Positions 7,468 to 60,744 of a DNA stretch of 64,000 nt are shown piece after piece (the first letter of the stretch is position 1; the number at the start of each line of letters is the position of its first letter). The translations under genes were made by a program, and so were the position numbers. The notes below the pieces were generated by a model. It made no database searches and was not told where the DNA came from. It saw only the letters and a program-made list of their open reading frames with translations. Origin of the DNA: Gammaproteobacteria bacterium (GTDB lineage Bacteria > Pseudomonadota > Gammaproteobacteria > Xanthomonadales > Wenzhouxiangellaceae); the NCBI GenBank assembly GCA_003567685.1, contig PWYW01000064.1:1-64000 (forward strand), read 5' to 3'.

Positions 7468-8706
7468 ATGGCCAAGATTGCTAATCATCTCAACCGCGGC
7501 GCGACAGCCGTCAGTGACTGGGTAAATGAGCGCGCCGGTGTTGGCGAGTTCTACAAGAAGCATATCAGCGAATACTACGCCCCGAAAAACTTCAACCTCT
7601 GGTACTTCTTCGGCTCGCTGTCGCTGCTTGTTCTGGTCAACCAGCTCTTGACGGGTATCTTCCTGACCATGCATTACAAACCGGATGCCGAGCTGGCGTT
7701 CGCGTCGGTCGAATACATCATGCGCGATGTCCAGTGGGGATGGTTGATCCGCTACATGCACTCCACCGGCGCTTCCTTGTTTTTCGTAGTGGTGTATCTG
7801 CACATGCTGCGCGCGCTGATGTACGGCTCGTACCAGAAGCCGCGCGAATTGGTCTGGATCCTGGGTGTCACCATTTTCCTGGTTCTGATGGCCGAGTCAT
7901 TCATGGGCTACGTTCTGCCGTGGGGCCAGATGTCTTACTGGGGTGCCCAGGTGATCATCTCGCTGTTCGGCGCGGTGCCTGTGCTCGGACCCGACCTCGT
8001 CGAGTGGATCCGCGGCGATTATTTCGTGGCGGATGCCACGTTGAACCGCTTCTTCGCGCTTCATGTGGTCGCACTGCCGCTGGTGTTGCTGGCGCTGGTA
8101 GTCTTGCACCTGGCCGCCTTGCACGAAGTGGGCTCCAACAACCCGGATGGGGTCGATATCAAGGCCAACAAGGACGAGGCGGGCCGCCCGCGTGACGGCA
8201 TTCCGTTCCATCCTTACTACACCGTGAAGGACATCTTCGGTGCGGCGTTCTTCCTGTTGATTGCTGCCTTCATCATTTTCTTCTGGCCGGAATTCGGCGG
8301 CTATTTCCTCAAGCCCGACAACTTCGTTGAGGCCAACCCGCTGGTGACGCCGGATCATATCCCGCCGGTTTGGTACTTCACCCCGTTCTACGCCATCCTG
8401 CAGGCAGTGCCTGACAAACTGATGGGCGTTGTGCTGATGGGCGCTGCGGTGTTGATTTTTTACCTGGTTCCCTGGCTGGATCGCAGTCCGGTTCGATCCA
8501 TTCGATACCGCGGCTGGATGTCGAAATTCATGCTCGCGCTGTTCTGCCTGGCGTTTGTCAGGCTGGGCATGCTGGGCCTCTCGCAGGAGTCGAGCACGTT
8601 CGAGCTTCGCCTGTGGACGTTCGTCTACTTCGCCTTCTTCATCCTGATGCCGATCTGGACCAGCATTGAGAAGACCAAACCCGTACCGGAGCGAGTGACC
8701 CACTGA
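7468..8706 (+). CDS. petB: Cytochrome b of the bc1 complex
   Basis: This membrane subunit carries two b hemes and the Qo and Qi quinone sites. The paired heme ligands are visible as His98/His112 and His199/His214. The Qo motif reads PVWY instead of the mitochondrial-type PEWY, a variant also known from other beta- and gammaproteobacteria. The 412-residue length is typical of a complete, unsplit cytochrome b. It starts two bases after the petA stop and ends overlapping petC by one base, so the three genes are co-transcribed. Confidence 0.97.
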   Translation: MAKIANHLNRGATAVSDWVNERAGVGEFYKKHISEYYAPKNFNLWYFFGSLSLLVLVNQLLTGIFLTMHYKPDAELAFASVEYIMRDVQWGWLIRYMHSTGASLFFVVVYLHMLRALMYGSYQKPRELVWILGVTIFLVLMAESFMGYVLPWGQMSYWGAQVIISLFGAVPVLGPDLVEWIRGDYFVADATLNRFFALHVVALPLVLLALVVLHLAALHEVGSNNPDGVDIKANKDEAGRPRDGIPFHPYYTVKDIFGAAFFLLIAAFIIFFWPEFGGYFLKPDNFVEANPLVTPDHIPPVWYFTPFYAILQAVPDKLMGVVLMGAAVLIFYLVPWLDRSPVRSIRYRGWMSKFMLALFCLAFVRLGMLGLSQESSTFELRLWTFVYFAFFILMPIWTSIEKTKPVPERVTH

Positions 8707-9440
8707 TGAAAGCAAGATATATCCTCACCGGCGCGGTCTTGCTTTTGGCCGCTTTCGCCGCCCACGGAGCAAAGACCAGCGGGCTTGACCATGCCGGCAG
8801 CAATGTTTTCGACACTGCCTCGGTACAGCGTGGCGCAGCAGCGTTTGCCAACTATTGCATGGCGTGCCATTCGATGCAGTTCAAGCGCTATCAGCGGCTG
8901 GTCCAGGACCTGAACATGAGCGAAGAGGAAGTGCTCGAGTTTTTGGCCTTTGGCGAGCAGGAGCTTTCCGACTACATGGTGGCTGCCATGCGCGATGAAG
9001 ATGCCGAAGAGTGGTTCGGCGTGGTACCGCCGGATCTGTCATTGACCGCGCGGTCCCGTAGTCCGGACTGGATCTATACGTTCCTGCGCAGTTACTTCCT
9101 TACCGACAATGGGTGGGACAACACCGTCAAGGAACTTACCGCCATGCCTCATGTGCTGGTTGAACTCCAGGGCATACAGCGTGCGGTGACTGAAACTCGC
9201 GAAGTCGGCGACGAGCTGCGTACCGAGGTGATCGGGCTCGAACTGGATCGCCCGGGTTTGATGTCGCCCAGCGAGTACGACGATTTCGTGCGCGATATCG
9301 TGGCCTTCATGGAATATGCTGCGGAGCCTGCTCGCCTGCAGCGCGAGCGCTTGGGTGTTTGGGTGCTGTTGTTCCTGTCGCTGTTCACTTTCGTGTCCTA
9401 TCTCCTCTACCAGGAGTACTGGAAGGACGTCAAGAAGTAA
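8706..9440 (+). CDS. petC: Cytochrome c1
   Basis: This membrane-anchored c-type cytochrome accepts electrons from the Rieske centre. A signal peptide (about 1-22) precedes the heme site CMACH (Cys51, Cys54, His55). A C-terminal helix (about 217-236) anchors the globular domain, ending in a short lysine-rich tail. The start ATG overlaps the petB stop as TGATG. Length (244 aa) is normal for gammaproteobacteria. Confidence 0.95.
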   Translation: MKARYILTGAVLLLAAFAAHGAKTSGLDHAGSNVFDTASVQRGAAAFANYCMACHSMQFKRYQRLVQDLNMSEEEVLEFLAFGEQELSDYMVAAMRDEDAEEWFGVVPPDLSLTARSRSPDWIYTFLRSYFLTDNGWDNTVKELTAMPHVLVELQGIQRAVTETREVGDELRTEVIGLELDRPGLMSPSEYDDFVRDIVAFMEYAAEPARLQRERLGVWVLLFLSLFTFVSYLLYQEYWKDVKK

Positions 9441-45952: not shown

Positions 45953-45979
45953 AGTAAGTCAGTGCTACTCTTTTCACTC

Positions 45980-46717
45980 ATGATCCTGGCGTCCCGCTTT
46001 TTCTTTCGAACCTTGCTCGGCAGTCTTCGTGACCTGGCGCCGATCTTTCTGGTGATCGCCGTATTCCAGCTCTTGGTCCTTGGCCAGCCAATCCCCGACC
46101 CGGGCGGTCTGTTAATGGGTGCGTTGCTGGTTGTCGTTGGGTTGACGCTCTTCGTCATGGGTCTGGAGTTGGGCCTGTTTCCGATTGGCGAGTCCATGGC
46201 CCACGATTTCGCCCGCAAGGGCAGTCTGTTCTGGCTTTTGGTATTTGGCTTTGCTTTGGGGTTCGGGACCACCATTGCCGAGCCTGCCTTGATTGCGGTC
46301 GCTGCCGAGGCGGCCCGGGTGGCGGCTGACGGGGCCTGGATTGCGTCCGACGAACACAGCCTGCGACAGTACGCCCTGGGCTTGCGCCTGACCGTCGCTT
46401 TTTCGGTGGGCCTGGCGATCCTTGTTGGCCTGCTCAGGATCATTCATGGCTGGCCGGTCCATTACCTGATCATCGCAGGCTACCTCGGCGTGGTGGTGAT
46501 GACCCGTTTTGCGCCCGCTGAAATCATCGGGATCGCCTACGATTCTGGCGGCGTGACCACCTCGACGATTACTGTACCGCTGGTCGCCGCACTGGGCATC
46601 GGGCTGGCCAGTACCATCAAGGGGCGTAACCCGGTCGTCGACGGCTTTGGACTGATTGCCTTTGCCTCACTGACACCCATCATTGGTGTCATGGCCTACG
46701 GTGTGCTCTGGTCATGA
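45980..46717 (+). CDS. DUF1538 membrane protein (first of pair)
   Basis: This polytopic protein of 245 residues has about six or seven hydrophobic segments. The DUF1538 signatures [12 protein letters not shown] (97-108) and [20 protein letters not shown] (from 187) are present; acidic and hydroxyl residues inside the membrane suggest an ion or small-solute path. No function is assigned to the family to my knowledge. I chose the ATG at 45980; a GTG at 45962 is possible. The gene overlaps the next by four bases. Its neighbours encode PII-like proteins, which often gate transporters. Confidence 0.87.
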
Positions 46718-47499
46718 ATTGGCTGATCGAATTTCTTCAAACCCTGCTGCTGACAGTGCTGGATGTGCTGCCCATCGCCGCCGTATTGATTGGTTTTCAG
46801 TTGCTGGTGCTGCGCCGCCGGATTGCCAACCTGGGCCGTGTGCTGATCGGTTTTGCTTGTGTGATCGTGGGCCTTGCCTTGTTTCTGCAAGGCCTGGAGC
46901 AGGCACTGTTTCCGCTTGGCACCCTGATGGCGGCCCAATTAACCGCGCCGGAGTTTCTGGTGACCGATGGCTCGGCAGTGCTGGATACGATTCCCTGGCA
47001 GGATTACTTCTGGGTGTACGCCTTTGCCTTCTGCATTGGCTTTTCCACCACGATTGCCGAGCCGGCACTCATTGCCGTTGCGATGAAGGCCGAGCGTATT
47101 TCCGGCGGCGCCATCAGTGTCATGGGGCTGCGCCTCACCGTTGCCTTGGGCGTGGCCGTCGGCATCGCACTGGGCAGCTGGCGAATTGTCACTGGAGCGC
47201 CGCTGGAACATTTCATCATGGCCGGTTACCTGATCGTGGTCGTCCAGACGGTATTCGCGCCGCGCATGATCATTGCGCTGGCCTACGATTCCGGCGGCGT
47301 GACCACCTCCACAGTGACCGTGCCCCTGGTCGCCGCGCTGGGTCTCGGCCTGGCAGCCGGTGTGCCTGGCCGGAGCCCGCTGCTCGACGGATTCGGCTTG
47401 ATTGCCTTTGCCAGCCTGTTTCCTATCATTGCGGTATTGGCCTATGCTCAGATTGGCGCCGTCGTCAAACGCACTCGAGGAAGCGAGGACAAACCCTGA
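46714..47499 (+). CDS. DUF1538 membrane protein (second of pair)
   Basis: This 261-residue paralog of the preceding protein has [12 protein letters not shown] at 112-123 and [10 protein letters not shown] at 191-200. An extra polar loop lies between helices at about 72-98. The two copies are diverged outside the motifs, suggesting a heterodimer or a split two-repeat transporter. The start overlaps the first copy (ATGA) and the end overlaps the PII-like gene (TGATG), so all four genes are translationally coupled. Confidence 0.87.
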
Positions 47500-50553: not shown

Positions 50554-51330
50554 TCAGGTGGATTGTCGTACAACCTCTTGCAGCTTGGGTACACAGGCTG
50601 CAGCCCGGCCGGCAAGGCGCCAAGTGGCCAGTCTCGTCAATTCGCTGGGCATGGGGTTGATTTCAATCAGGTGGGTGCCTCGTCGAGCGGCCTCGACAGG
50701 AATGCTGGCGGCCGGTTGAACCAGACCGGCCGTGCCTATGACCACGACCAAATCGGCCGATTCAGCGAACTGCAAGGCCCGGTCAAGCAGGCGGCTGTCC
50801 AGTGCCTCGCCGAACCAAACGACATCGGGCCTTGCGAGGCCTTCAGGGTGGTGAGGCGATGGCGGCGGTTCCCTGTCGGCATGCCGATCCAGCCAGGCCT
50901 GATCAATGGCCTGGCGTGTCTCTGAACAGACAGTCTGGTGAATGTTCCCGTGGAGGGCGACGACCGGGTCGCTACCGGCGCGCTGGTGAAGGCCGTCGAC
51001 GTTCTGGGTTATCAGCAGACTGCCGGGGCATGCGGCCTGCCAACGGGCCAGGGCGTGGTGGGCGGCATTCGGGCTGACCTGGCTGATCAACCTCCGACGC
51101 CATTGATACCAGCGCCAAACCAGACCCGGGTCATCGGCGAAACCTTCGGGCGAGGCCAGTCGCATCGGTTCAAATCTGGACCAGAGTCCGCTTTGTGCAT
51201 CACGAAAGGTCGGGATGCCGGATTCTGCCGACATGCCAGCCCCGGTAAACAGCAAGGCACGTTGCGATGATTGGAGGCATTCAACCAAATCGGTGGGCAA
51301 AGCCTCTTCGGGTTCAAGGGTATGCGCCAT
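50554..51330 (-). CDS. Sir2-family NAD-dependent protein deacylase with degenerate zinc site
   Basis: This sirtuin removes lysine acyl groups using NAD. The motifs GAGMSAESGIPTFRD, TQNVDGLH and the catalytic His in LHGN are intact. WYQWRRRL supplies the Tyr and Arg (YxxR) that in CobB/SIRT5 recognise succinyl or malonyl lysine. After LHGN only one Cys (VCSET) remains where four zinc cysteines are expected; the others are replaced by polar residues and a short SPHH segment. The fold may be stabilised otherwise. It overlaps the aspartoacylase-like gene by one base. Confidence 0.87.
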   Translation of the reverse strand: MAHTLEPEEALPTDLVECLQSSQRALLFTGAGMSAESGIPTFRDAQSGLWSRFEPMRLASPEGFADDPGLVWRWYQWRRRLISQVSPNAAHHALARWQAACPGSLLITQNVDGLHQRAGSDPVVALHGNIHQTVCSETRQAIDQAWLDRHADREPPPSPHHPEGLARPDVVWFGEALDSRLLDRALQFAESADLVVVIGTAGLVQPAASIPVEAARRGTHLIEINPMPSELTRLATWRLAGRAAACVPKLQEVVRQST

Positions 51331-52397
51331 CAGTCCAGGGAACCGACGTCGGTATAAGGGAAATCGTCAGCTTCCAGGCTGTCCTGGTAACCCTCGACGC
51401 GTTCATGGGCCAGATCGGTACGGTGGAAGCGGGCCACGTGGTAAATGGCATCGCCCTCGTTGACCAGCGGCAGCTTCAGGCGTCCAATGACCAGCCCGCT
51501 GAAGGGCGCGCGTATTTCCTGCTCGCGTTCGCCAAAGGGGTCGCTGACCATGCCGAGCACGGTTTCTCCACGCACTACGCGTTCGCCGAGGTCTACGTAG
51601 GCTCTGAACAAGCCGCTGTCCGGGGCGCGTATCCAGCTGCTTGATCGGGCAACAATGGGTTCCTTTGGTGGTTTGCGTCGACCCGGCGGCAACATGTCAA
51701 GCAGGCGCATCACGCGGATGATCCCTTCAACGCCACCCCGAATGCTGAATTCGTCCAGGCGCAGGGCTTCACCGGCTTCGTAGAGCAAAATGGGGATTTG
51801 CTTCTGCATCGCGGCAGCCCTCAGGGAACCGTCGCGAATCGCCGAATTGAGTATTACCGGTGTCCCGAAGGCCTGGGCCATGGACAGCACGGTGGAATCA
51901 TCCAGGTTGGCCCGAATTTGCGGCAGGTTGGATCGGTGGATGGCACCGGTGTGCAGATCGATACCATGAGTGCACTGGCTGACGATTTCGCGCATGAACA
52001 GATCGGCAATGCGCCCGGCCAGCGAGCCCTGTTCCGATCCCGGGAAGCTGCGATTGAGATCGCGACGATCGGGCAGGTAGCGGCTCTTGTCGATGAATCC
52101 ATGCAGATTGACGATGGGCACCGCAACCAGCGTGCCCCGCAGTTTCCCAAGAATGGGCGCCTTGAGCAGCCGGCGAATGATTTCTACCCCATTGAGTTCA
52201 TCACCGTGGATCGCTGCGCTGACAAACATGACCGGGCCTGCCTTGCGGCCACAGATAATTTGCACCGGCAGGGTGGTGGGCGCATGGGTGTAAAGCCTGC
52301 CGGCCTCAAGATCGACGCTCTTGCGTTCACCCGCCTCCACCAAAACCCCGCCAATGCGGATGCCCGGGTTGCGAGCGCGTTTGCCCGTTTTGCTCAT
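51330..52397 (-). CDS. Succinylglutamate desuccinylase/aspartoacylase family zinc hydrolase
   Basis: This M14-like zinc carboxypeptidase-fold enzyme cleaves an N-acyl amino acid or modified peptide end. AAIHGDELNGVEIIRRL supplies the His and Glu zinc ligands, DRRDLNRSFPG the substrate arginines, and GIDLHTGA the third His. A C-terminal beta domain (about 265-355) holds APFSGLVIG. I took the ATG at 52397 as start; one at 52436 adds 13 non-conserved residues. Relatives near rimK act in C-terminal glutamate modification, but rimK is not here. Confidence 0.85.
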   Translation of the reverse strand: MSKTGKRARNPGIRIGGVLVEAGERKSVDLEAGRLYTHAPTTLPVQIICGRKAGPVMFVSAAIHGDELNGVEIIRRLLKAPILGKLRGTLVAVPIVNLHGFIDKSRYLPDRRDLNRSFPGSEQGSLAGRIADLFMREIVSQCTHGIDLHTGAIHRSNLPQIRANLDDSTVLSMAQAFGTPVILNSAIRDGSLRAAAMQKQIPILLYEAGEALRLDEFSIRGGVEGIIRVMRLLDMLPPGRRKPPKEPIVARSSSWIRAPDSGLFRAYVDLGERVVRGETVLGMVSDPFGEREQEIRAPFSGLVIGRLKLPLVNEGDAIYHVARFHRTDLAHERVEGYQDSLEADDFPYTDVGSLD

Positions 52398-52564
52398 TGG
52401 AATGCTGTCTTGTTTCGCTGACCAAGGGTTCAACATCTTCGCTGATATTGCCGTCCCTGTCTTTACGTAATGCTGATTACGCAGATGACTTGACCGTCGC
52501 CACGGATGAGGTGAGTGGAGGTTGCCAGCGGCGGGCGCTGGCCTTGGCCTGTCGATGGTTTACT

Positions 52565-52588
52565 AAGACCTTCGTATTCAAAGGTCTT
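52565..52588 (-). other. Hairpin spanning the blh stop codon
   Basis: AAGACCTT and AAGGTCTT form a perfect 8-base stem with an 8-base loop that includes the blh TGA. It could mark the 3' end of the carotenoid operon transcript, but no T-run follows. Confidence 0.45.
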
Positions 52589-53510
52589 GGTAACGATGGC
52601 TCTGGCGAGCCTCGACTGGCGGTGGTGATGCCCAGGCAAGGATAAGCATGTGCGGCACGGTCAGCGCGGCAAGGCCGATGAATATCAATGGCACCAGCCG
52701 CTGCTCCAGGCTGGCCCCGGACAATAGCCAGACAAAGGCCGCCAGGCCAAGCACCAGGGTCGCCAGCGAATAGCCAATCAGTTCTTGCCAGAGCCGGCGA
52801 CGCCGTGAGGCGGGCGTTTGGTGCCAGCTGCGGTGGAAATGTCTCAGACTGTGCAGGCAGCAGAAATACACGGCAAAGTAGACCAGCGGCGGGGTAAGCC
52901 AGGCCAGCACCAGCAGCAAGACCAACTCGATGGCGAAGATTGGACGGAAGCGGGCGAGTGCGGCCGCCAGAATCAGCCCGCCAACCGCCAGACCGGCGAC
53001 GGGCAGGGCCAGCGTTTCAGCGAGCCACGCGCCACCGTTGCCTGACAGCATCTCAAAGAGCCCGGCGACATCGGCGGTGTGAAAGGCGATGGGTAACAGC
53101 AACAGCCAGGCGCCAGCCAGCCACTGCCATGACCTGGGTGCCGGCTTGAAATCCCCGCCGAAGTGAATGGCGCTGATCAACAGGAAAGCGGCCAAGGAGA
53201 CCGTCGGCAACCACCACCACAGCACTACCACCCCGAAGGCCAGCAACAGGTAGCTAAGGTGAAAACCAAGCAAGCCGTGTCGCCTGGGCCAGTGGCCACT
53301 GTTGCGAAGCAAAAGTCCATCGAGGGCACCGTGCGGAATTCCCAGAAAGACCACCCCCAGCGACAACAGCACCAGCGGCAGCCAATCCGGCACCCAGGCT
53401 GCCAGCGGCCAGTACAGCAGAACGGCCATCAGGGCAGCGGCACTGAACAGCCTGAACGCCGGATCGCCGGCATCGATTGCGGGTCGGGCTTGCGCGCGGC
53501 GTGCCGGCAT
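52578..53510 (-). CDS. blh: Beta-carotene 15,15'-dioxygenase, Brp/Blh family
   Basis: This inner-membrane iron enzyme splits beta-carotene into two molecules of retinal. The protein has about eight helices. Likely iron-binding histidines are in LGIPHGALDG, SAIHFGGDF, CCLHSLRHFHRSWH and TVPHMLIL. I chose the ATG at 53510, which overlaps the crtY stop (TGATG), over a TTG one codon earlier. It is the last gene of crtE-I-B-Y-blh and supplies the chromophore for the rhodopsin at 58318. Confidence 0.93.
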   Translation of the reverse strand: MPARRAQARPAIDAGDPAFRLFSAAALMAVLLYWPLAAWVPDWLPLVLLSLGVVFLGIPHGALDGLLLRNSGHWPRRHGLLGFHLSYLLLAFGVVVLWWWLPTVSLAAFLLISAIHFGGDFKPAPRSWQWLAGAWLLLLPIAFHTADVAGLFEMLSGNGGAWLAETLALPVAGLAVGGLILAAALARFRPIFAIELVLLLVLAWLTPPLVYFAVYFCCLHSLRHFHRSWHQTPASRRRRLWQELIGYSLATLVLGLAAFVWLLSGASLEQRLVPLIFIGLAALTVPHMLILAWASPPPVEARQSHRYQDL

Positions 53511-54694
53511 CAACTACTGCCGGCAACCGACCACGAGCGATTCGGCGACAGACAGAGACCGCGCAGAAACGGCCGTCTCGGCAGGCTTCGGATCACGTTG
53601 AGATAGTCACCCGGGCCGGCCTGGTCGCTGAGGAAGCGCACGACGGAATCGGGATGTGCCCGTTCGAACAGCTGGCTGAACAGCGCCGGCGCCAGGGACA
53701 GATCGTCGGCCAGTACTCGCAGAAACAGGCCGTCCATCAAGGATTGCAGGCGTGGATCTCTTGCCTGACCCAGCAAAGGGCCGCCGCTTTGCAGCCGCTG
53801 CAGGCAGCGCGCGGCCCAGGCCTGGATGCGCAGGAAGGCATAGCCGCTGGAAGGGCGCAAGGCACCGCCGGCCATGCCGGCACGGACGATACCCGGCTGG
53901 CTGGCTTCAGCGTCCGGCAGGCCCATTGGCAAGCAGCCGGCTTCCCGCCTGATCTGCCGGTGGCGGTCGAGTCCACGCTGAGCCAGCACGGTGTGCAAGT
54001 CGTGATCGAGAACGTCTTGATCCAGCGGGCGGTTCGAGAAACGGGTCACTTCAACCAGCGCGCGTCGCGTCCCGAATGGCAACAGGTAAGTGAAGTACAG
54101 ACCATCACGGTCATGGCGCAGCTGGGTCATCAGCTCCACGCAATCCGGCTCAAGGTGGCCATCCTGGTCCAGCTCGATTTCCACACCTTTGAACGTCTGC
54201 AGCAGCATGGCCGATTCCAGATGGGCGCGTCCCGGTGGGCGGGTATCCAGCACTTCGGCTGCGGTCAGACTGCCTCGGCTGGTTTCAATGCGCCAGCCCT
54301 TGCCCTGCCGCTCGATCGCGTTGACCGAGGTTGAGCGATGAAGATCGATGAGCGGGTGGCGCTCGATCGCGGCCAGATGGGTCTGGTAGAAGTCCACGGA
54401 GCGGACGTACTGGTAACTGAAGCGCCGGCTCTGGCGCTCGATCAGCGCCCGGTTTTCCCGGCCGACCAGCCAGCGTGACCAGCGATGACTGACCAGTTGC
54501 TCATGGCGATGGCGCGGTGGCGCAAAAAAGCACCAGCTGCGATCATCGCGATAGTCGCTGCGCGTTTCGAGCACGGCAACAGACAGTCGACTGCCCTGAC
54601 TGGCCAGGCGGCCGGCCAGCGACAATCCCGCACAGCCTCCGCCGATGATAACGAGATCATGCTCTGCGCTGCCTGATCGCTTGGTGTTGTTCAT
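53510..54694 (-). CDS. crtY: Lycopene beta-cyclase
   Basis: This flavoprotein cyclises both ends of lycopene to make beta-carotene. The Rossmann motif LVIIGGGCAGLSLAGRL starts near residue 15 and DDRSWCFF lies near 51; the later segment GMAGGALRPSSGYAF is a CrtY signature. 394 residues fits the CrtY family. It overlaps crtB by four bases and blh by one. Confidence 0.95.
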   Translation of the reverse strand: MNNTKRSGSAEHDLVIIGGGCAGLSLAGRLASQGSRLSVAVLETRSDYRDDRSWCFFAPPRHRHEQLVSHRWSRWLVGRENRALIERQSRRFSYQYVRSVDFYQTHLAAIERHPLIDLHRSTSVNAIERQGKGWRIETSRGSLTAAEVLDTRPPGRAHLESAMLLQTFKGVEIELDQDGHLEPDCVELMTQLRHDRDGLYFTYLLPFGTRRALVEVTRFSNRPLDQDVLDHDLHTVLAQRGLDRHRQIRREAGCLPMGLPDAEASQPGIVRAGMAGGALRPSSGYAFLRIQAWAARCLQRLQSGGPLLGQARDPRLQSLMDGLFLRVLADDLSLAPALFSQLFERAHPDSVVRFLSDQAGPGDYLNVIRSLPRRPFLRGLCLSPNRSWSVAGSS

Positions 54695-55629
54695 GCGTTC
54701 ACCTTCCTTAAGTCACTGAAGGCCCGGTGCAGTTCCGCCTGGTGCGGGGGAGGTGCGTCGGGTGGGGTGATATCGGCCAGCAGGGTCCGGATGGCCAGTC
54801 GCCAACGTCGGTGAGAAGGGACCACGGTCCGGTGCTGCCAGCCGCGAGCCTGGCGCCGCTGAAGATCCCTGCCGATTTCACGATAAACGGCCGCCGCCAC
54901 GCCGATGGCGCGGCGTGCCCGAGCCGGCAGGAAATACAAGCCGGCCCGACCGCTGGCGTAGTAGTACTCGGCCAGCCCAAGCAACTGCAGGATGGCCGAG
55001 CGGATGTTCTCATCGTCCCGCTCAGGGTCTTCCAGGCAGCGGGCCGGACGAGTGTCGCCCAGCCAGGATGCCGGCAGATAGACCCGCCCCATGCTGGCGT
55101 CTTCGGCAACATCACGCGCAATGTTGGTCAGCTGCATAGCAATGCCCAGGTCGATGGCGTAAGGCAAGGCCTGTTTTTCGTCGTTGCAGCCGAGCAGGGC
55201 CGTCATCATCTCGCCGACGGTGCCGGCCACCTTGTAGGCATAGCGAAGCAGTTCGTCGACGCTGAATAACTGGACAGGCCCAAGGTCACCGAGCAGGCCG
55301 TCGATCAAGGCCAGAGTCGGCGACCGCGGGATGGCCATTGAAGCTGATAGATCCAGAAAGTCGGCGGTTTGCGGGCAGTCGGACTGTCCCGCAATGATGT
55401 CAGCGGCCACTTTTTCCAGTTGAGTGCGTGCCTGCAAGCGGTCGTCGGGTCGGTCGGCCAGATCATCGACGTGTCGGCAAAAGGCATACAGGCGTGTGGC
55501 TGCCTGCCTGGAATCCTTGTCCAGGAACAAACCGGCCAGATGAAAGGTGCGCCCATGCCGCTGCAGAATGGCCGCCGCATCCACCGAGTCAGCGCTCAGG
55601 TCATCAACCAGTTCAGCGGGCCCGTTCAT
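54691..55629 (-). CDS. crtB: Phytoene synthase
   Basis: This trans-isoprenyl synthase condenses two GGPP into phytoene. The two Asp-rich motifs are in FCRHVDDLADRPDD and in the second half around NIARDVAEDASMGRVYLP. 312 residues is normal. It is coupled to crtI and crtY by four-base overlaps. Confidence 0.96.
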   Translation of the reverse strand: MNGPAELVDDLSADSVDAAAILQRHGRTFHLAGLFLDKDSRQAATRLYAFCRHVDDLADRPDDRLQARTQLEKVAADIIAGQSDCPQTADFLDLSASMAIPRSPTLALIDGLLGDLGPVQLFSVDELLRYAYKVAGTVGEMMTALLGCNDEKQALPYAIDLGIAMQLTNIARDVAEDASMGRVYLPASWLGDTRPARCLEDPERDDENIRSAILQLLGLAEYYYASGRAGLYFLPARARRAIGVAAAVYREIGRDLQRRQARGWQHRTVVPSHRRWRLAIRTLLADITPPDAPPPHQAELHRAFSDLRKVNA

Positions 55630-57137
55630 GAGGCGACCGCCCGCGCGACCGGCTGGGACAGGCTCTCGGTATACGGCTCGATGAGCCGGTCGACCAGTTT
55701 GGCCGAAGACAATACGCCCGGCACCCCGGCGCCCGGGTGTGTTCCGGCACCTACCAGGTAGAGGTTGGCCGGGCCTTCGGCCCGGTTGTGGAATCGGAAC
55801 CAGGCTGATTGGCGGAAATGCGGCGCAATGGAAAAGCCCGCGCCGTCGGGCGACAGGTAATCGTGCTCGAAGTCGTCCGGAGTCATTTCGAAGTCGGCGC
55901 AGATGTTCTGCTTCAGGCCGGGCAGAATGCTTTGATCCAGCGCCTCGATGACCCGGGCCTTGAGTGCAGGGCCGGCGCTTGCCCAGTCGATGCCTGCCTG
56001 GCCGTTCGGTACCGGCACCAGCGCATAGAAGCTGTCGCAGCCGGCCGGGGCGAAGCTCGGGTCGCTGGCGGTTGGCCGATGAAGATAAATCGAGAAGTCC
56101 TCGGCCAGCCGTTTGTTGTGGAAGATATCCTTCAAGAGTGCTTCGTAACGCGGGCCCAACCAGATGGTGTGGTGGGCAACGTCCGGGTATTGCCGACGGG
56201 TTCCGAAGTACATCACGAACAAGCCCATGGACCGGTCGGCATGGCGGGTTTTCAGGCGCGCCGACAATTTGATGTCGCTTTGCTTGAGTACATTGCGGTA
56301 CAGATGAACCGGGTCGGCATTCGAGACGACCAGGTCTACCGGCTCCACGCGTTGGCCGTCAATCTCGACTTCGTGGATGCGTCCGGCGCGAGTCGCCATG
56401 CCGGTGACCGTGCTGCCGGGTTCCAGCGAGATGCCCTGGCGCTTCATCAGGTCGCTCAGCGAATCGACCAGGGCGCCGGTGCCGCCGCGCGCGAAATGCA
56501 CGCCGTAGGCGCGTTCAAGAAAATGGATCAGGGCATAGATGCTGGTGGTATCGAACGGGTTGCCTCCGACCAGCAGCGGCTGAATCGAGAAGGCCTGGCG
56601 TAGGTGGTCGCTTTCAAGGTGCTTGCAGACCAGTTGCCAGACGGTGCGCCAGGCACCCAGTCGGGCCAGGTTGGGAATCTGTCGAAGCATCGTGCCGAAC
56701 TGGTGAAACGGCTGATCGGACAGTTGTTTGAAGCCGACATCGAAGATCGCTCTGGAGTGTTCGAGCAGGGCCCGATAGCCATCCACATCGGCCGGGTTGA
56801 TTCGCTCGATCTCGGCCAGCGTTTCTTCCAGGCTGCCGCCGTAGTCGAAGCGCGTGCCATCGCGGTACTCAAAGCGGTACCAGGGTTTGAGTGGCATCAG
56901 CTCGATGTGGTCGGACAGTCGTTCGCCGAACAATTCGAACAGCTCTTCGAACAGGAAGGGAGCGGTCAGTACCGTCGGGCCGGCATCATGGCGAAAGCCT
57001 TCCCGCTCGAACACCTGGGCCCGGCCACCGGGCCGCTCGCAGCGATCCACCAAGTGAACCTGATAGCCCTTGGCGCGGAGTCGGAGCGCGGCCGCAATGC
57101 CGCCGAAGCCAGCGCCGATAACCAAAGCGCGGTTCAT
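55626..57137 (-). CDS. crtI: Phytoene desaturase (lycopene-forming)
   Basis: This FAD-dependent desaturase introduces four double bonds to make lycopene. The N-terminal VIGAGFGGIAAALRL binds FAD and is followed by RPGGRAQVFEREGF. The C-terminal NLYLVGAGTHPGAGVPGV is the bacterial desaturase signature. 503 residues is typical. ATGA overlaps on both sides. Confidence 0.97.
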   Translation of the reverse strand: MNRALVIGAGFGGIAAALRLRAKGYQVHLVDRCERPGGRAQVFEREGFRHDAGPTVLTAPFLFEELFELFGERLSDHIELMPLKPWYRFEYRDGTRFDYGGSLEETLAEIERINPADVDGYRALLEHSRAIFDVGFKQLSDQPFHQFGTMLRQIPNLARLGAWRTVWQLVCKHLESDHLRQAFSIQPLLVGGNPFDTTSIYALIHFLERAYGVHFARGGTGALVDSLSDLMKRQGISLEPGSTVTGMATRAGRIHEVEIDGQRVEPVDLVVSNADPVHLYRNVLKQSDIKLSARLKTRHADRSMGLFVMYFGTRRQYPDVAHHTIWLGPRYEALLKDIFHNKRLAEDFSIYLHRPTASDPSFAPAGCDSFYALVPVPNGQAGIDWASAGPALKARVIEALDQSILPGLKQNICADFEMTPDDFEHDYLSPDGAGFSIAPHFRQSAWFRFHNRAEGPANLYLVGAGTHPGAGVPGVLSSAKLVDRLIEPYTESLSQPVARAVAS

Positions 57138-58078
57138 GGAGAAGAAGCCTCGGTTGATTGGTCGCAGAGCGCATCCAGAAGATGCGTTGCCATCTCCGCC
57201 AGGCAGCCTCCGATAGCCCTTGGCAATGTCTCAGCGCGTTGCTTGGCCTGTTCCAGGGATTGTCTGGCAATCGATTCGGCGCGCCGCACCGGGTTGGCGT
57301 AGCGTTTCGCCAGTGCGTTCACCAGATTTGGGCTGCCAACTAATTCGTCGTCGCTTTGATCATGGATGTCGTCCATGGCCTGGTATCCGACCGCCAGGTC
57401 CTCGGCAATATCACGCACAGTCTGTCGATGTTGGGTTTTGCCAGCGCTCACCAGGCACAAATCCACCGGCAATGCGATCAGATCGGCCGATTTGGCAATA
57501 GCAATTTCTCGGCAGCGGGCCGGCCCACAAGCCGCGCGACGGCGCTGGTCAAGATCCTGACATTGCCCTCTGATCAGGCGAGCGACGGCCTGGTGGGTGA
57601 TACTGATCAGTTCGGCCGGATTACGCTTGGTTTCCGCCAGCAAGCTGTAGGCACGGGAAAGAAGGTAATCGCCTGCACAAATCGCAACGTCAGGTCCAAA
57701 GCGTTGCCATAGTGCCTCCTGGTCTCGACGGCAGCGTTGGCGGTCCTGCAGATCGTCGTGGATGAGTGACGCATTGTGGATGATCTCGCAGCTGGCGGCA
57801 ATGCGAAGCAGGCAGTGCGTGTCGATGGCCAGGGCGTTACCGGTTTCGAGTGCCAGACGCATCCGCTTCTGACTGCCTTGCTTGGCAAAGTGGAAGGCGA
57901 GGGCCCGGTCAAGCGTGGTTCGCGAGCAGCCGGCTCGACCCTCCAGGATTCGTGCTCGCAGCCAGGCGCTGGCTTGCCGACATTGGCGATCCGGCGGGGC
58001 TGTCGCCTTCGATTGTTTCGATGGAGCGTTTACCCTGCGTAGAGCCTGGGGGCCCGTTTCATTCAACAATACCTGCAT
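57134..58078 (-). CDS. crtE: Geranylgeranyl diphosphate synthase
   Basis: This prenyltransferase makes the C20 precursor for carotenoids. The first Asp-rich motif lies in SLIHDDLQDRQRCRRD and the second in YQAMDDIHDQSDDE. The ATG at 58078 has GGAG at seven bases; ATGs at 58081 and 58144 are possible but less suited. The length is then 314 residues. It is the first gene of the five-gene operon. No idi gene is present. Confidence 0.93.
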   Translation of the reverse strand: MQVLLNETGPQALRRVNAPSKQSKATAPPDRQCRQASAWLRARILEGRAGCSRTTLDRALAFHFAKQGSQKRMRLALETGNALAIDTHCLLRIAASCEIIHNASLIHDDLQDRQRCRRDQEALWQRFGPDVAICAGDYLLSRAYSLLAETKRNPAELISITHQAVARLIRGQCQDLDQRRRAACGPARCREIAIAKSADLIALPVDLCLVSAGKTQHRQTVRDIAEDLAVGYQAMDDIHDQSDDELVGSPNLVNALAKRYANPVRRAESIARQSLEQAKQRAETLPRAIGGCLAEMATHLLDALCDQSTEASSP

Positions 58079-58317
58079 CATCCCTCTCCATCTAGAAGCT
58101 GACCAGGTCAGCGATGGCGCGGCTCGATGGCCGGTTGCTTTCAACGCTACGCTCGGGATGTGGAGGGAAGGTCAAGGTCTTGTTCACAAACCCTTGATGC
58201 AAGTCATCTTTTTGTTCACGCAACACTCACTGTGATCTCACGAGACGAGCGCACTGTTTCGCTCAAGCCCGACGCTGCTGTTGGGCTCCATTAACTACAA
58301 CGACGAAGGGATAAATC
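58079..58317. promoter_or_regulatory. Divergent crtE/rhodopsin control region with direct repeats
   Basis: This 239-base gap must hold promoters for both the carotenoid operon (minus) and the rhodopsin (plus). TTGTTCAC occurs twice in the same orientation, at 58180-58187 and 58212-58219, 32 bases apart, i.e. about three helical turns. AAGGGAT precedes the rhodopsin ATG. No confident -35/-10 pair was found for either gene. Joint control, possibly by light, is inferred. Confidence 0.55.
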
Positions 58318-59187
58318 ATGGACCTGGACGAGCTAATCAGTGCCCTTGGTAATGCCACGTTTGAAAACTACGTGGGTGCCTCGACGGGCTTCTCTGAAAT
58401 TGCCTATCAGTTTTCATCACATGTTCTGACCTTTGGCTTCGCGGTCATGCTGGCCGCGCTGCTGTATTTCGTGCTTACCATCAAAACCGTTGCCCCCAAA
58501 TATCGGATTTCTTCGGTGCTATCGGTCGTTGTCATGGTGTCTGCATTCCTGCTGTTGATGATCCAGCAGCAGAATTGGACCAACGCCATGGTTTATGACC
58601 TCGAAGCAGGGCGTTATGTGCTGGGCGACGGTCGCGACCTGTTCAACAACGGCTATCGCTATCTGAACTGGCTTATCGACGTTCCAATGTTGCTGTTCCA
58701 GATTTTGTTCGTTGTTACGCTGACCACGAGCAAATTCAGCTCCGTACGCAATGGCTTCTGGATCTCGGGTACCTTGATGATTCTGACTGGCTACTATGGC
58801 CAGTACTTCGAAGTGACCAGCCCCGGCACGTTCTTCTTCTGGGGCATTGTCTCGACGTTGTTTTTCATTCACATCCTTTACCTGATGCGCAAGGTCATCA
58901 AGGAAGGTCAGGTCGGCGCGCCGCCCAAGGCGCAGCAGTACCTTGGCCTGATCTGGATCATCTTCCTGTTCTCGTGGATGCTTTATCCGATCGCTTACGT
59001 CATGCCCTACATCTTCGGGATCACCGAAGCAGCGTTGAACGAGTGGGCCGTGATGCTGCGCCACGTCACCTACACGGTGGCTGACATTGCCTCGAAGGTG
59101 ATCTACGGCATCCTGCTCACTCTGACTGCGCAGGAAATGTCCAAAGCCGACGGTTATGATTACGAAAAAATGGAAAACGCCATCTAA
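58318..59187 (+). CDS. Light-driven sodium pump rhodopsin (NDQ type)
   Basis: This seven-helix retinal protein pumps ions in light. The third-helix motif reads GYRYLNWLIDVPMLLFQ with Arg114, Asn117, Asp121 and Gln128. These equal Arg109, Asn112, Asp116 and Gln123 of the sodium pump KR2 from a flavobacterium, and the offset of +5 holds throughout. Retinal lysine is Lys260 and the nearby Asp is Asp256 (ADIASK). His35 and Asp107 match the KR2 oligomer-interface pair. A proton pump would show D-T-E. Ser66 and Thr268 replace KR2 Asn61 and Gly263 at the cytoplasmic entry. The adjacent crt-blh operon makes retinal. Confidence 0.95.
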   Translation: MDLDELISALGNATFENYVGASTGFSEIAYQFSSHVLTFGFAVMLAALLYFVLTIKTVAPKYRISSVLSVVVMVSAFLLLMIQQQNWTNAMVYDLEAGRYVLGDGRDLFNNGYRYLNWLIDVPMLLFQILFVVTLTTSKFSSVRNGFWISGTLMILTGYYGQYFEVTSPGTFFFWGIVSTLFFIHILYLMRKVIKEGQVGAPPKAQQYLGLIWIIFLFSWMLYPIAYVMPYIFGITEAALNEWAVMLRHVTYTVADIASKVIYGILLTLTAQEMSKADGYDYEKMENAI

Positions 59188-59212
59188 TTTCGGCGGACAC
59201 TCCAGCCCCAAA

Positions 59213-59241
59213 AGCCCCGGTGCATCGCCGGGGCTTTTTTT
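59213..59241 (+). terminator. Rho-independent terminator of the rhodopsin gene
   Basis: AGCCCCGG and CCGGGGCT form an 8-base perfect stem with a seven-base loop, followed by a run of seven T, 26 bases after the stop. The rhodopsin is therefore transcribed as a single gene. Confidence 0.95.
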
Positions 59242-59361
59242 GTCGGCTTGATATCAACTGCGGTCCCTGTCGTTCTGCAGGGGCAGAGGTGCGCTGTTTC
59301 CGTGGCCGAGTGCGAACGTCTTAGGTACACTGAGGCCCCCAAAACACGGATACGCCTCGGG

Positions 59362-60744
59362 ATGCTCGGATTGTTTGGTCTGGTCTTTGCCGTTCTTGCC
59401 TTGATTTTGATGGCCCTGCGTGGCGTCAACATTCTGATTGCGGTTCTGGTAGCCAGCCTTCTGGTGGCGTTGACCAACCAGCTTGGAATTGCCGATACGC
59501 TGCTCGTGCATTTTCCGACCGGCCCCTTGGGTGCGTTTAGTTTTGCCGGGCAATTCTTCGTGCTCTTCCTGACCGGCGCTATTTTCGGAAAAGTAATGGC
59601 TAACAGTGGCGCGGCGGCGGCAATTGCCTTCGGCATCATCAGTGCCCTCGGGCCACGACGGGTGCTGTTGGTCACTGTCCTGGTTTGCGGCTTGCTCACC
59701 TATGGAGGGGTGGTTGTTTTCGTCGTGATATTCACCATGTATCCGCTCGGAATTGCGTTGATGCGGGAAGCCGACCTGCCCAAACGTCTTTTTTGTGGCG
59801 CCATTGGACTGGGTGCCGGTACATTCACGATGACTGCGTTGCCGGGCACTCCATCCGTCCAGAACGTTATCGCTGCATCGGCTCTCGGAACGGATCTGTT
59901 TGCCGGCGCAATGATTGGTTTACTGGCCGGTCTGGTGATGGCGGCTTTGGGATGGTGGTATCTGGAAGATCAGTGGCGTCGCTCCCGCAGGCGCAACGAG
60001 GGTTACGAACCCAATCAACAGGATGCCGCGATGGAAAAAATGGCTCCCGAGCAGGCTCGAATTCCCTCGCCTTTCCTGGCAGTCATCCCCCTGGTGGTGG
60101 TTCTGGGTACCATTCTGGCACCGCGATTGCTGACGTTGCTCGGGTCGGGAAATGCTGATCCCAGCGAGGCGAACGGACTGTTGGCATTCGCGCTTACCCA
60201 GCCCATTGTCTGGCCCAGTTTCGCGCTGGTCATGGGAACGGTCTGCAGCATCCTGTTGTTCCCGGTCTTGCGCCAGCAGCTTCTTGACCCCCTCGGTACG
60301 GGTGCCAACGACAGCATCATGCCCTTGTTGAATACCGCAGCGGTCATTGGTTTCGGCGGTGTCGTGACCCAGACGGCTGGTTTCGAAGGCTTTGCCCAGT
60401 GGGTAGTCGGGCTTGATTTGCCGCCGTTGGTTTCGATTGCCGCATCGGTCAGCGTGATCTCCGGCACCGTCGGTTCAGCCTCGGGTGGACTGCAAATTTT
60501 CATGCAGACGTTCGCCGAAACCTACCCGGCCATGGGGGTTGACCCCTCCAGTCTCCATCGTATTGCTACCATTGCTTCCGGGGGGCTAGACTCCCTGCCG
60601 CACAGCGGGGCGGTCGTTGCGATGCTGACGATCATGGGCCTGCGACATGCCGAGGCCTATCGGGATATTTTCATCGTGACCGTGCTGGTGCCGGTGGTTG
60701 CCACCGCGGTTGTCATCGTGGTCGCTCAGTTAGTGCTGATGTGA
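59362..60744 (+). CDS. GntP-family permease
   Basis: This polytopic inner-membrane transporter has about 12 helices over 460 residues. LTGAIFGKVMANSGAAAAIA and the loop TALPGTPSVQNVI match the GntP family. Characterised members move gluconate or other small organic acids such as 3-hydroxybutyrate, with protons or sodium. The substrate cannot be read from sequence. The ATG at 59362 starts at the first helix; the in-frame extension to 59248 overlaps the terminator region and is rejected. Confidence 0.83.
   Translation: MLGLFGLVFAVLALILMALRGVNILIAVLVASLLVALTNQLGIADTLLVHFPTGPLGAFSFAGQFFVLFLTGAIFGKVMANSGAAAAIAFGIISALGPRRVLLVTVLVCGLLTYGGVVVFVVIFTMYPLGIALMREADLPKRLFCGAIGLGAGTFTMTALPGTPSVQNVIAASALGTDLFAGAMIGLLAGLVMAALGWWYLEDQWRRSRRRNEGYEPNQQDAAMEKMAPEQARIPSPFLAVIPLVVVLGTILAPRLLTLLGSGNADPSEANGLLAFALTQPIVWPSFALVMGTVCSILLFPVLRQQLLDPLGTGANDSIMPLLNTAAVIGFGGVVTQTAGFEGFAQWVVGLDLPPLVSIAASVSVISGTVGSASGGLQIFMQTFAETYPAMGVDPSSLHRIATIASGGLDSLPHSGAVVAMLTIMGLRHAEAYRDIFIVTVLVPVVATAVVIVVAQLVLM

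Follow-up and report, generated by a model that had tools for sequence, protein, structure and literature searches.

A putative NDQ-type sodium-pump rhodopsin of Balneolales type beside retinal genes in a gammaproteobacterial genome with a broken proteorhodopsin gene

The window (the whole stretch of DNA analyzed in this work, 64,000 nt) represents contig C35 of a 2.74 Mb draft genome (G000; 107 contigs, 99.6% complete, 1.0% contaminated). Within it, a 6.6-kb block composed of five retinal genes (crtE, crtI, crtB, crtY, and blh) and a rhodopsin gene lies exactly between a doeB-like gene and gntP, and the five retinal genes are localized directly upstream of the rhodopsin gene, on the divergent strand. 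The following features were distinguished:

51330..52436, minus strand: left flank, DoeB-like deacylase gene (family match below cut-off), adjoining gntP in 8 of 12 congeners examined
~52437-52577: left junction of the block
52578..53513, minus strand: blh, beta-carotene 15,15'-dioxygenase, which makes retinal (TIGR03753, 187.1 bits, cut-off 95.25; listed start TTG)
53510..54694, minus strand: crtY, lycopene cyclase (TIGR01790, 99.5 bits, below the cut-off of 209.5; same place in congener operons)
54691..55629, minus strand: crtB, phytoene synthase (SQS_PSY, E 1e-62; named by gene order)
55626..57137, minus strand: crtI, phytoene desaturase (TIGR02734, 560.8 bits, cut-off 238.1)
57134..58144, minus strand: crtE-like polyprenyl (geranylgeranyl) diphosphate synthase gene (Pfam polyprenyl_synt, E 9.6e-37; same place in congener operons)
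58318..59187, plus strand: putative NDQ-motif sodium-pump rhodopsin gene (ATG start, 289 aa, intact ORF)
~59188-59361: right junction of the block
59210..59241, plus strand: intrinsic-terminator-like hairpin with a T run, directly 3' of the rhodopsin gene (read from the sequence, absent from the scanner's list)
59248..60744, plus strand: right flank, GntP-type permease gene (true start probably ~59362)

CrtE, CrtB, and CrtY match NCBIfam models below the respective cut-offs (for CrtB, HpnD came first, followed by two phytoene synthase models), and they are named partly by Pfam and by gene order. The listed start of the crtE-like gene is TTG, and its true start may be further in. The start of GntP was placed near 59362 because many congener alignments begin near residue 36-39. 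No sigma-70-like promoters were found in a scan of positions 57900-59500.

The product of the rhodopsin gene matches Pfam Bac_rhodopsin (E 1.8e-40), and the solved structures nearest to it are 8jh0 (E 2e-118; labelled xanthorhodopsin, which by the literature we take to be the Indibacter sodium pump) and 4xtl of KR2 (E 2.4e-107); these E-values exclude a chance match. A previous reading made from the sequence alone had named the gene an NDQ sodium-pump rhodopsin, with the key residues of KR2 at a constant offset of +5, and both points were borne out. Helix C carries Arg114, Asn117, Asp121, and Gln128 in place of R109, N112, D116, and Q123 of KR2, and His35, Asp107, Asp256, and Lys260 correspond to H30, D102, D251, and K255, all of them at +5. 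The NDQ motif (Asn/Asp/Gln at KR2 positions 112/116/123) is thus formed by N117, D121, and Q128, and the residues expected of a sodium-pump rhodopsin (NaR), i.e., the retinal lysine of helix G with its aspartate and the arginine of helix C, are K260, D256, and R114. KR2 of Krokinobacter eikastus and IaNaR of Indibacter alkaliphilus share with the window protein the NDQ motif, the equivalents of Asp102, His30, Asp251, and Lys255, and the extracellular Glu-Glu-Arg cluster (E16-E165-R248 in the window protein), described for both in the accessible part of PMC10679507. According to the available text of PMC11006869, subgroup 1 of NaRs has Leu/Ile at KR2 position 74 and Asp at position 102; the window protein, with L79 and D107, follows this rule, and Leu at position 74 is also found in KR2 and IaNaR. 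What distinguishes the window protein from these two pumps is the sequence itself (67% identity to the Indibacter NaR and 62% to KR2) and the gammaproteobacterial host. The DTE/DTD-type motif of proteorhodopsins is replaced by NDQ, the identity to eight related proteorhodopsins is 29-33%, and Asp121 occupies the position (KR2 116) at which NTQ chloride pumps have Thr. These features argue for a subgroup-1 NDQ light-driven Na+ pump.

The mechanism of such a pump can be carried over from KR2 and IaNaR because of residue identity. Retinal would be carried on Lys260, and light would move the Schiff-base proton to Asp121; Na+ would enter from the cytoplasm past Ser66, Thr268, and Gln128, bind near Asn117 and Asp256, and exit outward past Arg114. 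Products of the divergent crtE-crtI-crtB-crtY-blh genes would make beta-carotene and then cleave it to retinal, and the block, with its retinal presumably supplied by this cluster, looks like a self-sufficient sodium-pump photosystem.

A 16S gene was found in only one of the 30 genomes of the genus scanned (G027), and the window's own genome gave no match. Among the 15 matches listed for the G027 gene in plasmid/chromid records, the best was 88.9% identical (Methylomagnum), and all 15 presumably represent gammaproteobacterial genera, in agreement with the gammaproteobacterial host proposed before; three lower-ranked records beyond these 15 show 90-95% identity, covering less of the query, and the 16S of E. 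coli is ~85% identical. The Kbl protein was rejected as a marker of the host class, as its best matches (~63%) are found in several phyla, and the congener 16S was used instead.

NDQ pumps have been described mainly from Bacteroidota-type bacteria and from some alphaproteobacteria. In the parts of the sources available to us, Erythrobacter is named among the carriers (PMC11006869, PMC5864233), putative sodium pumps are reported in soda-lake Bacteroidetes (PMC4766312), and one NDQ-motif gene is reported in Absconditabacteria (PMC8406219), which, beside the Bacteroidota-type and alphaproteobacterial genes, means that the NDQ family does cross phyla. We found no description of a gammaproteobacterial NDQ pump in the literature searched, outside which most subscription papers lie. 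With the window protein as a query, no other NDQ gene was detected in 368 other sampled genomes of the class or in 397 other sampled genomes of the order (the two samples overlap). Besides the window's own gene, the class sample (369 genomes, including the window's) yielded three matches at 30-31% identity, and the order sample (398 genomes) 11 matches at 30-33%; all 14 are proteorhodopsins, as judged by comparison with that of G022, which is among them (56-100% identity). Furthermore, a scan of ~85,000 GTDB 220 genomes with two N-terminal peptide patterns, from which records near the window's genome may be missing, revealed 87 NDQ relatives. The best 80 of these 87 bear Bacteroidota/Balneolota/Rhodothermota-type names, with the exception of one Verrucomicrobiales MAG, and the first five of the 80 are Balneolaceae (75-77% identity), for which isolate names such as CSSed presumably point to soda-lake sediments. 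The NDQ rhodopsin of the MAG labelled Verrucomicrobiales (L073, 2739-3566), 66% identical to the window's and adjoining a crtY-like match (33%), might reflect another transfer between phyla, or its contig may have been mis-binned.

In a quick maximum-likelihood tree, of which the inner grouping alone was used (the rooting row is very long), the window rhodopsin was nested within the NDQ clade, inside a 28-row set (SH-aLRT 97) whose 27 other rows comprise 20 Balneolota, 3 Rhodothermota, and 4 MAGs named Bacteroidetes. The window rhodopsin stands on a long end branch (0.38), and its sister is not settled in this tree; the Balneolaceae rhodopsins, nearest to it among the relatives listed, belong to the same supported set. 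Nine Balneolota NDQ sequences (L040-L046, L054, and L090) form a strongly supported group on a long stem (SH-aLRT 100, stem 0.54), away from the remaining Balneolota sequences. Lateral transfer, previously suggested from the sequence, is well supported, as the nearest relatives are Balneolaceae and the class and order samples contain no other NDQ gene; the place of the protein among Balneolota and Rhodothermota and the absence of the gene from the corresponding site in congeners speak for it as well. A phylogeny against flavobacterial NaRs had been proposed as a check; the source lies nearer to Balneolales than to flavobacteria, and the rhodopsin would derive from a Balneolales-type bacterium.

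The proposed comparison of codons and GC content with neighbouring genes proved powerless, since the GC3 of the rhodopsin gene (0.73) falls inside the range of its neighbours (0.63-0.80), in contrast to the low GC3 of the five Balneolaceae NDQ genes checked (0.40-0.51). The total GC of the gene is low (0.52), which goes with amino-acid content, since four congener proteorhodopsins (0.55-0.59) likewise fall below their adjacent crtI genes (0.60-0.67); GC content was therefore rejected as a sign of transfer. As a low-GC donor has left no mark on the codon composition, the transfer was presumably old, or proceeded via a GC-rich host or otherwise indirectly. A plasmid or virus vehicle was also rejected: the two plasmid matches show 32-34% identity over 59% of the query, and the viral contigs gave no match.

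The insertion site was compared in six congener stretches, i.e., those of G022, G005, G013, G002, and G025, in which kbl and gntP are close on one contig, and that of G018, chosen as a proteorhodopsin carrier. The kbl, tdh, and doeB-like genes are present in all six, and gntP directly follows the doeB-like gene, in divergent orientation, in five, G018 being without gntP there. Within nine shorter gntP loci, the doeB-like gene is located beside gntP in six (G025, G022, and G005 again, as well as G014, G016, and G001) and was not found within the fetched gntP flank of G017, G019, and G009. Overall, the two genes adjoin in 8 of the 12 congeners compared, and all 12 stretches were without crt or NDQ matches at the site. 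The arrangement varies within the genus, as G017, G019, G009, and G018 differ. One 9-bp direct repeat occurs at 52453 and 59263; it was discounted as a target-site repeat, because ~0.3 such matches are expected by chance (a rough estimate).

The Bac_rhodopsin domain was found in 9 of 61 genomes, i.e., in that of the window, in seven congeners, and in one member of the family, and the eight other carriers all have the DTE helix C of proteorhodopsins. In the congeners, the proteorhodopsin gene is the first of a series of retinal genes on its strand; the series is complete or could be followed up to contig ends and within the limits of the matches (G023 gave no crtE match). In the rhodopsin-bearing family member, blh alone accompanies the proteorhodopsin gene in the fetched stretch. 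In another genus of the family, blh comes after the proteorhodopsin in three of the four rhodopsin-bearing members (L119, L180, and L181), whose fetched stretches gave no crt match, and the fourth (L182) gave crtI and crtY matches. The window's genome carries a remnant of a gene of this type:

8199-8770 of locus L111 (contig C92, genome G000), minus strand: broken proteorhodopsin, with two surviving pieces (89% and 90% identity to the G022 proteorhodopsin)

In this remnant, the helix C region is missing (residues 65-125, ~184 nt), with 5 nt instead, and the frame is changed. The surviving parts are 76-79% identical at the DNA level and 89-90% at the protein level, as would be expected for a gene under selection until recently. 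No crt match was found beside it on C92; of its neighbours, MarC is present, among the seven proteorhodopsin-bearing congeners, only in G013 (at E 1e-20), on another contig than the proteorhodopsin, and TonB-C gave no match above 30% in the genus. Because the congeners have DTE proteorhodopsins with retinal genes and the window's genome keeps only a broken one, the proton pump appears to have been replaced by the sodium-pump photosystem.

The retinal cluster of the window has the same five genes, in the same order, as the gammaproteobacterial proteorhodopsin operon (PR-crtE-crtI-crtB-crtY-blh), from which it differs in the absence of the head gene, in place of which a distant NDQ gene is located divergently. 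In Salinivibrio, according to the accessible part of PMC4094778, xanthorhodopsin-type (proton-pump) genes are clustered with crtE, I, B, Y, and blh. The CrtI of the window is 66-71% identical to eight congener CrtI proteins, and its relatives outside the genus reach 69% in the class sample. Of the 80 NDQ loci fetched, 9 contained some match to the Crt or Blh proteins of the window (tblastn, E 1e-10), with 22-33% identity, and no locus had all five genes of the block, many of these loci being short. Judged by the CrtI relatives at 69% in the class sample against the 22-33% matches at NDQ loci, the retinal cluster is gammaproteobacterial in kind and the rhodopsin is not.

Taken together, we consider it probable (roughly 0.8) that the locus encodes a subgroup-1 NDQ Na+ pump of Balneolales type, placed with gammaproteobacterial retinal genes between the doeB-like gene and gntP in a genome whose inherited proteorhodopsin was inactivated. 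One species would thereby have shifted from light-driven H+ to Na+ export, the other sampled rhodopsin carriers of the genus being of the proton-pump type. Several other explanations were weighed. The sequence-only reading had correctly placed Ser66 and Thr268 against Asn61 and Gly263 of KR2 and had suggested that the ion preference may differ; a preference for K+, Cs+, or H+ now seems very unlikely. In KR2, these two residues are thought to form a cytoplasmic filter, and engineered changes at N61 and G263 permit K+ or Cs+ pumping, mostly with large hydrophobic residues, as stated in the accessible part of PMC10608830. Ser/Thr is, however, the commonest natural pair at KR2 positions 61/263 (58 of 82 aligned rows, against 8 with Asn/Gly as in KR2; the rows come from the 80 GTDB loci, i.e., the best 80 of 87, and include one NTQ chloride-type paralogue, L087_rev, and one fragment), and IaNaR, for which Na+ pumping has been demonstrated, carries it as well; the deviation from KR2 thus suggests no other ion, and altered selectivity was rejected. 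An assembly or binning error, joining a Balneolales fragment to a gammaproteobacterial contig, might be suspected in a draft of 107 contigs whose NDQ gene has its nearest relatives in other phyla; this is the least probable of the explanations, as both flanks of the block are genus-native (neighbours in the 8 congeners mentioned), the retinal genes inside it are of gammaproteobacterial type, the GC3 of the rhodopsin gene fits the contig and not the Balneolaceae copies, and the window sequence contains no N. Hardly more plausible is vertical descent from an old gammaproteobacterial NDQ lineage, with losses elsewhere: a fully adapted GC3 and the long end branch would suit it, but NDQ genes are absent from all 29 congeners (several incomplete), from the 397 other order genomes sampled, and from the site in the 12 congeners examined, and the rhodopsin-bearing congeners have distant DTE rhodopsins.

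Whether the pump and the retinal genes arrived together was approached by comparing the proteins of G000 with those of the group of G018, G013, G005, and G022. CrtI is 66-71% identical to members of this group, which share 82-95% with each other; the respective values are 46-50% vs. 61-80% for CrtY and 36-42% vs. 56-80% for Blh. This divergence exceeds that of Kbl (86-90% vs. 86-88%), the broken proteorhodopsin (86-89% vs. 89-95%), and the DoeB-like protein (73-76% vs. 75-95%), and the crt genes thus look foreign to the G018 group. The favoured reading is the arrival of the block as a unit from an unsampled gammaproteobacterium. A composite photosystem, with a Balneolales NDQ pump and gammaproteobacterial retinal genes, would have been assembled there and would have entered at a fresh site, the inherited proteorhodopsin losing its helix C region, so that light would now drive Na+ rather than H+ export. 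We regard this as having about an even chance, its probability being lowered by the extra divergence that some flanking native genes also show, i.e., Tdh (80-84% vs. 85-94%), GntP (70-74% vs. 78-93%), and CobB (55-56% vs. 64-83% among G022, G013, and G005), so part of the divergence of the crt genes may simply reflect distance. Somewhat doubtful, though a serious candidate, is the import of the rhodopsin alone, with the retinal operon of the genus itself moving to this site and joining it when or after the proteorhodopsin was lost. Such a course is consistent with a gammaproteobacterial CrtI nearest to that of a congener (71% with G018), with no second CrtI at E 1e-40 in the window's genome, and with a broken proteorhodopsin orphaned from crt genes. 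A CrtI clade of all congeners with G000 was not rejected in the AU test (p 0.35), but a clade of G000 with the G018 group was marginally rejected (p 0.046), and the excess divergence of CrtI, CrtY, and Blh, with little in Kbl and the broken proteorhodopsin, also speaks against it; in the CrtI trees, the row of the window took differing, weakly supported places.

A benefit of the putative Na+ photosystem to the host may be presumed. A soda-lake Balneolaeota isolate with an NDQ rhodopsin showed light-dependent Na+ export in washed cells, as given in the available part of PMC6243061. The window's genome encodes NqrF (679 bits, cut-off 295), which is above the cut-off also in 16 of the 29 other genomes of the genus, and Na+ energetics is thus independent of the pump. 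A gammaproteobacterial NDQ pump beside a retinal pathway, together with a wrecked inherited proton pump, would offer a natural before-and-after case of changing the light-pumped ion, and related proton-pump species allow comparison, e.g., under conditions of high salt and high pH, in which exporting Na+ might be more profitable than exporting H+. Elsewhere in the window, positions 45962-47499 contain what, from a look at the sequence, we take to be a pair of neighbouring small membrane proteins that resemble each other, with short P-II-like ORFs after them.
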